Positions 52,783-55,235 of a stretch of DNA of 64,000 bases are shown here, in pieces. The stretch is from Burkholderia sp. USMB20 (GTDB taxonomy: Bacteria; Pseudomonadota; Gammaproteobacteria; Burkholderiales; Burkholderiaceae): assembly GCF_000949135.2 (NCBI RefSeq), contig NZ_JTAN02000005.1:399658-463657 (forward strand), written 5' to 3'. The position numbers were made by a program, and so were the translations under genes. The first letter of the stretch is position 1; each line of letters opens with the position of its first letter. The notes below the pieces were generated by a model that saw only the letters and a list, made by a program, of their open reading frames with translations, did no database searches and was not told where the DNA came from.

Positions 52783-53655
52783 TCAGGCCGGTGCCGCGCG
52801 CACCGTTTGCACCGTTTGCACCGTTTGCACCGTTTGCACCGTTTGCACCGTTTGCACCGTTTGCACCGTTTGCACCGTTCGCGCCGCGACGCGGCCGTGC
52901 GGACGCGGACGCCACGGCGACGAGCGGCAGCTGGCCGCGCCGGCCGCCCCCATCGCCGGCGAGCGCGTACCGCGACGCGCACGCCAGTCGGCCCGGATCG
53001 CCGCGATCGCGCGAAGCGCCCATGATTGCGCCATCACGACAGGCCGCACGCCCCGCCGCGATGCCGGCGACATGCGACGCGCGACGCATGCAACGGGACG
53101 CCTGCACAGGATCGCGCTGTCATAGCGCTTGCCGGCGAAGCGCACGATATCGACGACGTCGAAGCCCTGGGCCCGGTAGAACGCCAGCAGATGCGACGCG
53201 GGATGCGGCGTATCGAGCGCGAGCAGCGAATAACCGCGCAACGCGGCCCACTGCCCGGCAAACGCGAGCAGCGTCGCACCGATCCCGCCGCCTTGCCAGC
53301 CGGGATCGACGGCCACCTGCCGCACGCTCGCGACGCCGTCGCGACGGTACAGCGAACACGGCGACGACGGATCGGTGGCGTAGAGCGTCATCGTGCCGAC
53401 GACGCGACCGCCCGACACCGCGACATGGCATTCACCCGCTTCCGCGCGGCGACGCGTGACCTCCTCGGCCTGGTCGACACACGTACAGTTGAGCCCCATC
53501 GCGCCGAGTCGCGCGAACGCACGGTGCAGCAGCGCGGTGAGCTGCGTGTAGCTGTCGACTGCCGGATCGAAGCGCCGCACGATGACCCGGTCGGCGCGCA
53601 CGGCAGGCGGCGCGGCGGGTGAACGTTCGGCGATCGTGTTCCGGGATATCGACAT
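52783..53655 (-). CDS. GNAT-family N-acetyltransferase with repeat-bearing tail
   Basis: The N-terminal ~185 residues form a GNAT domain: VIVRRFDPAVDSYTQL, HVAVSGGRVVGTMTLYA, and the acetyl-CoA loop VRQVAVDPGWQGGGIGATLL, ending near KRYDSAILCRRP. The frame then stays open for about 100 more residues of unrelated Arg/Ala-rich sequence and a (Thr-Val-Gln)n tail encoded by the 9-bp repeat at 52800-52880. A normal GNAT would stop near 53105, so the tail may be a lost-stop extension or the true coding end may differ. The substrate is unknown. Confidence 0.75.
   Translation of the reverse strand: MSISRNTIAERSPAAPPAVRADRVIVRRFDPAVDSYTQLTALLHRAFARLGAMGLNCTCVDQAEEVTRRRAEAGECHVAVSGGRVVGTMTLYATDPSSPCSLYRRDGVASVRQVAVDPGWQGGGIGATLLAFAGQWAALRGYSLLALDTPHPASHLLAFYRAQGFDVVDIVRFAGKRYDSAILCRRPVACVARRMSPASRRGVRPVVMAQSWALRAIAAIRADWRARRGTRSPAMGAAGAASCRSSPWRPRPHGRVAARTVQTVQTVQTVQTVQTVQTVQTVQTVRAAPA
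52800..52880. repeat. 9-bp tandem repeat, nine units
   Basis: Eight perfect GCACCGTTT units are followed by one GCACCGTTC. The unit length is a multiple of three, so copy-number change keeps the frame of any gene reading through it. It lies between the DUF3999 gene and the GNAT domain. Confidence 0.95.
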
Positions 53656-53977: not shown

Positions 53978-54283
53978 ATGGTCACCTGCTTCCTTCGCTA
54001 CGTCATCGATCCGTACAAACTCGAGCAGTTCGAAATCTACGGCAAGATGTGGATTCCGCTCGTCGAGCAATTCGGCGGCACGCACCACGGCTACTTCCTG
54101 CCTTCCGAGGGCGCCAGCAACATCGCGCTCGCGATGTTCTCGTTCCCGAGTCTCGCCGAGTACGAGCGCTATCGCAAACGCTCGAAGGCCGATCCCGCGT
54201 GCCAGGCCGCGTTCCGGTATGCAGAGGAAACGCGCTGCATCGTCAGCTACGAGCGCAGCTTCTTCCGGCCGGTGTTCGAGTAA
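53978..54283 (+). CDS. NIPSNAP family protein
   Basis: This 101-aa protein has the NIPSNAP pattern: FLRYVIDPYKLEQFEIYGKMWIPLVEQFGG at the start, HGYFLPSEGASNIALAMFSFPSLAEYERYR, then ending RSFFRPVF. It is a ferredoxin-like dimeric fold; bacterial members are of unknown role, some near stress or redox genes. The sRNA terminator hairpin lies 43 bp downstream on the other strand. Confidence 0.9.
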   Translation: MVTCFLRYVIDPYKLEQFEIYGKMWIPLVEQFGGTHHGYFLPSEGASNIALAMFSFPSLAEYERYRKRSKADPACQAAFRYAEETRCIVSYERSFFRPVFE

Positions 54284-54317: not shown

Positions 54318-54387
54318 GAAAAAAAGCCCCGCCTGCATCCGCGCGGCGGGGCCAACCCATGTCAGTAGAGACATTTATGGAGGAGAC
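54318..54387 (-). ncRNA. Candidate ~70-nt small RNA with anti-Shine-Dalgarno 5' end
   Basis: On the minus strand a promoter (54394-54422) predicts a start at about 54387. The transcript would begin GUCUCCUCCAUAAAU, form a small hairpin (AUGUC / GACAU, 54359-54374), then a strong terminator (GGCGGGG-type stem, 54326-54352: GGCCCCGCC loop GGCGGGGC) ending in seven U. No gene on that strand precedes the terminator, so it is not a gene end. CUCCUCC at the 5' end is complementary to Shine-Dalgarno sequences, a known sRNA seed type. Confidence 0.6.
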
Positions 54388-54393
54388 GGGCCC

Positions 54394-54422
54394 ATCTTAT
54401 CGAGCGCGGCTCGCCGTCCCAA
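54394..54422 (-). promoter_or_regulatory. Sigma-70 promoter of the candidate sRNA
   Basis: On the minus strand TTGGGA (complement of 54417-54422) and TAAGAT (complement of 54394-54399) are separated by exactly 17 bp. Four of six bases match consensus in each hexamer. Confidence 0.5.
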
Positions 54423-54584
54423 CCAAGCATTTCTGCTATCCATCTGCGTCGCCGCGCGCACGCGCGCCCCGCGTGCCTGGCATATCGATAGAACGAAAAG
54501 TCGTTTTCAGAGTGGCGGCGGGGTCGTTACCATCTGGTTTTAAGCCTGTGCTTAGCCGGGCAAGCCATCCCCAAGGAGCGCCCT

Positions 54585-55235
54585 TTGACTGCATTCGACC
54601 AACACCGCCGCCCGTTCGTGGTCGGCATCGGCGGCACCACCCGGGCCGCATCGTCGACCGAGCGCGCACTGTCGTTCGCGCTGCGCGGCGCGCAAGCCGC
54701 CGGCGCACGCACGCGCCTGTTCGACGGCCCGTTCCTGCATACGCTGCCGCACTACGCCCCCGAACACAAGACGCTGACCGACGCGCAGCGAGAACTGATC
54801 GACACCGTGCGCGAAGCCGACGCGATCATCATCGCGACGCCCGGCTATCACGGCGGCGTGTCCGGCCTCGTGAAGAACGCGCTCGACACGCTCGAGGAAC
54901 TGCGCGCCGACGAGCGCCCGTACCTCGACGGTCGCGCGGTCGGCCTGATCGTCACGGCCTACGGCTGGCAAGCCGCCGGCACCGTGCTGACGTCGCTCCG
55001 GTCGATCGTCCACGCGCTGCGCGGCTGGCCGACCCCGTTCGGCGCCACCGTGAACACGCTCGAAACGCGCTTCGAAAGCGCCGACAGCTGCTCGGATCCG
55101 AAGGTCGTCGCACAGCTCGAGACCGTCGGCTCGCAGGCAGCCGAATTCGCGCTCGCGTTCGCATCGCATCGCGCGGCCACGCACGCCGCATCGGTCGACG
55201 CGCTCGCGCCCGTGCTGAAGATCGCCAACCAGTAA
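54585..55235 (+). CDS. NADPH-dependent FMN reductase
   Basis: This 216-aa flavodoxin-like protein uses a TTG start (54585), 8 nt after AAGGAG. The phosphate-binding loop is GIGGTTRAASSTERAL, and the flavin motif TPGYHGGVSGLVKNALDTLEEL is typical of SsuE/ChrR-type reductases. It reduces FMN or quinones with NADPH. It stands alone, with the sRNA region upstream. Confidence 0.9.
   Translation: MTAFDQHRRPFVVGIGGTTRAASSTERALSFALRGAQAAGARTRLFDGPFLHTLPHYAPEHKTLTDAQRELIDTVREADAIIIATPGYHGGVSGLVKNALDTLEELRADERPYLDGRAVGLIVTAYGWQAAGTVLTSLRSIVHALRGWPTPFGATVNTLETRFESADSCSDPKVVAQLETVGSQAAEFALAFASHRAATHAASVDALAPVLKIANQ

Follow-up and report, generated by a model that had tools for sequence, protein, structure and literature searches.

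Small RNAs of the Rfam family RF02278 (Betaproteobacteria toxic small RNA), which include the Burkholderia cenocepacia double-hairpin RNAs ncS03, ncS05, ncS27, and ncS62, are thought to block translation of genes for nutrient uptake and metabolism. Toxicity on cloning in E. coli and attenuated growth on overexpression have been published for members of this group (PMC4603805, PMC5688073); for ncS27, overexpression attenuated growth (PMC5688073), and effects on genes for catabolism and carbohydrate transport are described in a review (PMC10987360). In Bordetella pertussis, S17, a relative by its 5' end, is reported to repress a target reporter in an Hfq-dependent manner, with direct repression of the reporter in an E. 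coli strain provided with B. pertussis Hfq and without similar toxicity (PMC11722255).

The window analyzed here, a stretch of 64,000 nucleotides from Burkholderia sp. USMB20, contains on its minus strand a segment whose layout resembles that of these RNAs. The predicted sRNA is 69 nt long (54319 to 54387, minus strand) and runs from a 5' GUCUCCUCC through to a run of seven U. It is preceded by a -35-like TTGGGA (54417 to 54422) and a -10 TAAGAT (54394 to 54399) on the same strand, with a spacer of 17 nt between the two and six bases between TAAGAT and the start of GUCUCCUCC at 54387. These elements, as well as the GC-rich stem before the seven U, lie in the sequence as a sequence-only reading of the window had described them. 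That reading had also placed no minus-strand gene between or upstream; the flanking genes, which are context and lie outside the RNA, are both on the plus strand, although minus-strand open reading frames called mechanically overlap the flanks of the locus on both sides. The convergent neighbor (53978 to 54283) encodes a NIPSNAP protein (PF07978, E 8.7e-18), and the divergent neighbor (54585 to 55235) a flavin reductase (PF03358, E 3.1e-24), the latter reaching no family cut-off in NCBIfam. Elsewhere in the window, a nine-base tandem repeat of GCACCGTTT with 8.9 perfect copies was seen at 52800 to 52879, in the 3' end of a minus-strand open reading frame with a GNAT domain. The closest genome in the comparison set has 24% of sampled 31-mers in common with the window, and the named flavin reductase loci listed first are from B. 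ambifaria and B. cenocepacia.

Using a generic promoter scan at 9 of 12 consensus positions, no promoters were found in the window, while pairs resembling a promoter at 8 of 12 positions are frequent there (10 sites), and thus the promoter call rests on conservation and not on consensus match. The terminator of the sRNA was absent from the list of a generic terminator scan; the tool permits loops of 3 to 8, and this loop is longer. With a wider rule (8-bp stem, at least six G-C pairs, loop of 3 to 14, six T of eight), it was the sole match on both strands of the 64 kb, and the same rule found none in 17 of 20 first-order Markov windows and one in each of the other three. The complement of the seed occurs once in the window, on the opposite strand of the sRNA itself. 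The decisive evidence beyond chance for the putative sRNA gene is comparative.

At the Rfam gathering cut-off, no family was found in the window, and none in a set of 12 loci that includes 10 with the RNA; the family was therefore found with a lax threshold only. Under that threshold, 54319 to 54388 matched RF02278 at 38.3 bits (model positions 1 to 64 of 64, E 1.3e-6), short of the gathering cut-off of 50 bits and approximately 18 bits ahead of the next Rfam family in the window, the weaker matches being to anti-hemB (20.4 bits) and sX13 (19.9 bits). All 10 of the other orthologues scanned also matched RF02278, at 31.8 to 42.5 bits (E 0.018 or better), with none reaching 50. The first 10 nt of the sRNA are those of the RF02278 copies, and the GAUAUGG/GACAUGG element and its spacing are alike. 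A search of 12 genomes with RF02278 identified, for each of 10 Burkholderia genomes, three or four copies that pass the cut-off. Like the sRNA locus, these copies have GUCUCCUCC as well as the first stem and terminator; the locus itself was a sub-threshold match in nine of the 10 genomes and absent as a match in G051. Reciprocally, a covariance model built from 56 distinct orthologues, the window included (model R2), had its sole match in the window at 54318 to 54387 (60.5 bits) and recovered 29 of the 30 loci from the RF02278 search, missing L041, itself sub-threshold. Three weak extra matches to R2 (13.2 to 20.6 bits) adjoin copies of one paralogue and look like ordinary terminator region.

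From these comparisons, the predicted sRNA is a divergent, sub-threshold relative of the RF02278 double-hairpin sRNAs. The description of the RNA as an orphan in the sequence-only reading would be wrong in the sense of unrelated, as the layout is common to copies in the same genomes. It is quite unlikely that this is an unrelated sRNA whose layout is convergent, C/U-rich seeds against Shine-Dalgarno sequences and terminators being common: the sequence is short and simple and the weak anti-hemB and sX13 matches indicate that the score is partly generic, but the lead of RF02278 over them, the identical 5' end, the shared element with its spacing, and the reciprocal R2 matches argue against convergence. 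The locus is instead read as a conserved gene for an sRNA of known type, hidden by the family cut-off, with its function assigned by analogy and its transcript predicted.

To examine conservation, a 171-base query was compared with the genome set. Of 61 Burkholderia genomes it matched 60 (the exception, G058, has no match, and G045 matches over the 3' half only), and it matched no genome among the 40 from other genera. The upstream half (54415 to 54584) matched 37 of 37 Burkholderia genomes and, over one short stretch, one of 24 others. Loci were then taken from the best 80 of 339 relatives found by a contig scan with the flavin reductase. The pattern of seed and terminator, with one seed change allowed, was present at 74 of the 80 named loci, in Burkholderia and Paraburkholderia (75 with the window), and L090 carries a single change within the seed. 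Among the six loci without the pattern, the contig ends in L071, and L093 has kept the 3' half and lost the seed; no sRNA was found in the 420 to 520 bases examined at L105, L126, L131, and L140 (one Paraburkholderia, two Caballeronia, and one Trinickia). L093, from Burkholderia sp. Ac-20379, retains the terminator and 3' half upstream of the reductase and is a natural case of decay. In a search of 150 genomes of the family with the orthologue model, under stricter filters, the matches listed include 25 genomes at 60 bits or more: all 15 of the Burkholderia genomes listed and 10 of the 13 from Paraburkholderia (g60). With the next listed match at 47.7 bits, the locus can be told apart from its paralogues. 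Overall, it looks like an sRNA gene that has been conserved in Burkholderia and in many Paraburkholderia.

The 3' neighbor of the sRNA locus changes between genomes. A homologue of the NIPSNAP gene was present at 22 of the 80 named loci (in L080 it is approximately 2 kb off, and the stretches available at L067, L071, and L073 are too short for a judgement). This distribution bears on whether the segment is a cis element only, serving the neighboring genes as leader or terminator or controlling them by antisense. The intergenic position between two genes, adjoining the conserved leader of the reductase, would suit such an element; we nevertheless consider it most unlikely, as both neighbors are on the opposite strand, the U-run is found on the minus strand only, and the NIPSNAP homologue is far less widespread than the seed and terminator. 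A separate sRNA gene remains the preferred reading.

Across the 35 Burkholderia rows aligned besides the window (L071 was dropped as too short), majority-base means were high for the seed (0.978), hairpin 1 (0.955), and the linker and terminator (0.968), against 0.642 for the 3' flank and 0.713 for the NIPSNAP coding end. The promoter-like hexamers were likewise conserved, at 0.948 for TTGGGA and 0.962 for TAAGAT, compared with 0.748 for the spacer and 0.800 from the -10 to the start; many Paraburkholderia have TATGAT as the -10. The conservation of promoter, seed, and terminator among relatives, by which the earlier reading proposed to judge itself, was thus found, and it supports well the proposed short sRNA gene that would act in trans through an anti-Shine-Dalgarno 5' seed. 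Directly upstream, a box of CAGATGGATAGCAGAAATGCTTGG (54423 to 54446, minus strand; mean 0.949) is near-invariant in Burkholderia and contains an AGCA-GAAA-TGCT inverted repeat, while many Paraburkholderia have another box sequence, with GATAAGCATATGG. The box may be where an activator of the sRNA binds. Because the flavin reductase leader is conserved too (0.897), either gene could account for the conservation of the box taken by itself. Within that leader, at 54470 to 54510, a conserved CGACTTTTCGTTCTATCGATATG (minus strand) was also observed, and L131 (Trinickia), a locus at which no sRNA was seen, has a similar sequence.

The seed GUCUCCUCC (54379 to 54387, minus strand) is complementary to GGAGGAGAC and unchanged in 54 of the 56 distinct orthologues, in agreement with the claim that the 5' end is complementary to Shine-Dalgarno sequences. 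Hairpin 1 (54356 to 54381, minus strand) reads CCAUAAAUG in the window and CCAUGAUG in most Burkholderia rows. The AUGUC/GACAU hairpin noted earlier is present in 11 of 16 distinct Burkholderia rows, but the pairing kept across both genera is CCAUG/CAUGG, with 97.9% of cells paired. The internal AUG frame is broken by one-base indels between orthologues, which argues against a conserved peptide. In the predicted folds there are two hairpins, the second of which is the rho-independent terminator (54319 to 54353, minus strand), a GC stem followed by U7 that is supported by the folds, the wider-rule scan, and changes on both sides at 4 of 10 stem pairs. The folding z score was -2.99 for the window copy and -1.95 to -4.72 for the 12 orthologues folded, all of which were below the shuffle mean, with at most 6 of 200 shuffles folding as well. 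In the predicted fold, the mean unpaired probability of nt 1 to 7 was 0.87 in the window and 0.68 in L096.

Using RNAalifold on the plain alignment, a poor consensus of six pairs, none with changes on both sides, was obtained because the terminator stem lengths differ. The structure was therefore set by hand, and pair counts lean towards it: terminator cells with both-side changes numbered 39 against 13.9 in shuffles, exceeding all 500, whereas changed pairs were not in excess (4 against 3.7 in shuffles, with slid controls reaching up to 5). Hairpin 1 is near-invariant and has no covariation support.

The loop of hairpin 1, UCUACU (54364 to 54369, minus strand), stands at the place of the second CU-rich seed of RF02278, whose copies carry a second UCUCC there. 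This seed is eroded in Burkholderia, where 11 of 16 distinct rows have UCUCUACU at the position, while CUCCU is retained in 37 of 40 distinct rows on the Paraburkholderia side. Together with the predicted free 5' seed, the eroded loop suggests that the Burkholderia copy has one working seed. Erosion of the second seed, the sub-threshold scores of all scanned copies, and the lost seed of L093 could also be expected of a decaying, vestigial RF02278 copy, perhaps still transcribed, whose regulatory function has been lost in Burkholderia. Such decay is unlikely, however, given a 5' seed, hairpin, and terminator that are near-invariant across two genera while the flanks drift. If the Burkholderia copy is instead functional, it may tentatively be proposed that it became a single-seed member of a double-hairpin set present in several copies, its own conserved activator box providing a separate signal into a shared anti-Shine-Dalgarno regulon and repressing only those targets for which the 5' seed alone is enough. 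The eroded loop seed offers a natural test of the role of each seed.

To identify candidate targets, three genomes were scanned for GGAGGAGAC followed by ATG at 3 to 9 nt, giving 15, 10, and 8 sites and none when read backwards; the 15 matches in G018 are 14 distinct sites, one being counted twice (two ATG). The control GGAGGAGCA, with the last three letters permuted, gave 8, 4, and 8 sites (3, 2, and 2 backwards). The enrichment of seed sites is thus weak, with two genomes showing a modest excess and G189 none, and 6 of 30 fetched sites head frames under 60 amino acids. When 10 of the 14 sites in G018 were scanned, a Pfam family was found in nine proteins: MFS (three), OmpW, lactate permease, CoA-transferase III, aldehyde dehydrogenase, fatty acid hydroxylase, and a dioxygenase-like protein, with one protein lacking a family. 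Nine duplexes with the 5' 12 nt had energies of -19.3 to -21.9 kcal/mol, compared with -9.3 to -10.3 for the 16S anti-Shine-Dalgarno segment; as the sites were picked for complementarity, these energies illustrate the pairing and do not test it.

Taken together, 54319 to 54387 (minus strand) is probably an independently transcribed gene for a trans-acting sRNA, a divergent further member of the RF02278 group, whose 5' GUCUCCUCC would block GGAGGAGAC-like ribosome-binding sites with Hfq at U7. The basis for this in the present analysis is sequence, conservation, family resemblance, and predicted 5' accessibility, and transcription, Hfq dependence, repression, and target class are inferred from relatives. 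By that analogy, the RNA would be transcribed from its own promoter-like pair and Hfq would be held at the U7 tail. The unpaired 5' end would then pair with the ribosome-binding sites of several mRNAs, presumably mainly of transporters and catabolic genes, and the pairing would block ribosome entry. Repression at such sites is supported by the published work on ncS27 and S17.

The locus was then compared with the RNAs published for B. cenocepacia. The assembly G004 has four RF02278 matches above the cut-off, with the sRNA locus the fifth at 42.5 bits. We take G004 to be B. cenocepacia NCTC13227 (L062, L025), that is, the J2315 strain. Two above-cut-off copies on one of its contigs have 258,127 bases between them, and the published positions of ncS03 and ncS05 are 258,126 apart (PMC4603805), a spacing that fits this strain. 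The 63.8-bit copy on contig C2 is probably ncS62, judged from score, length, and elimination. ncS35 was ruled out as the sRNA, since its primer site on contig C15 (597412) is 414,671 bases away from the sRNA (182741). Estimated from that site, the sRNA would lie near 2.719 Mb on chromosome 2 of J2315, minus strand, if the two are collinear, and ncS62, published at 2,089,713 on chromosome 2, is far from this position. In Table 1 of PMC5688073 and Table 2 of PMC10987360, no entry was present at approximately 2.719 Mb. Burkholderia genomes are stated to hold three to five double-hairpin RNAs (PMC5688073, which also has a supplementary list of 148 starts), and the legend of Fig. 3 in PMC11722255 names J2315 sequences from all three chromosomes; the sRNA locus may already be tabulated or counted in print. 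A sixth, weaker RF02278-like site was observed in L188 (1501 to 1553, minus strand; G004:C1:26628-26680) at 29.3 bits, with GUGUGACACCUCCUUGACUGGGAUU and a terminator and without the usual 5' seed, and the same locus may account for the 32.2-bit matches in G001:C4 and G018:C1.

A conserved locus masked by the Rfam cut-off is thereby added to a family credited with metabolic shutdown on nutrient deprivation, and the results of knocking out single members would need another interpretation where a further copy has the same seed. Among described systems, the Neisseria NmsR tandem sRNAs, likened here by description, are similar in having CU-rich unpaired stretches against ribosome-binding sites and differ in their tandem copies and TCA-cycle targets (PMC5688073). 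B. pertussis S17 is alike in its C/U-rich 5' seed against ribosome-binding sites, its U-tailed terminator, and its 67-nt short form; however, that form, S17S, is described as arising from a longer RNA by RNase E processing and as having two conserved sites, whereas the sRNA locus has a promoter-like pair directly upstream (PMC11722255). Compared with the RF02278 double-hairpin RNAs ncS03, ncS05, ncS27, and ncS62, the predicted sRNA falls under the gathering cut-off, has an eroded loop seed in Burkholderia, and has its own putative promoter and upstream box at a locus apart from the four published, but it is of similar length, occurs in the same genomes, and has in common with them the 5' GUCUCCUCC, the short CCA.../...UGG hairpin, and the GC terminator with its U-run.
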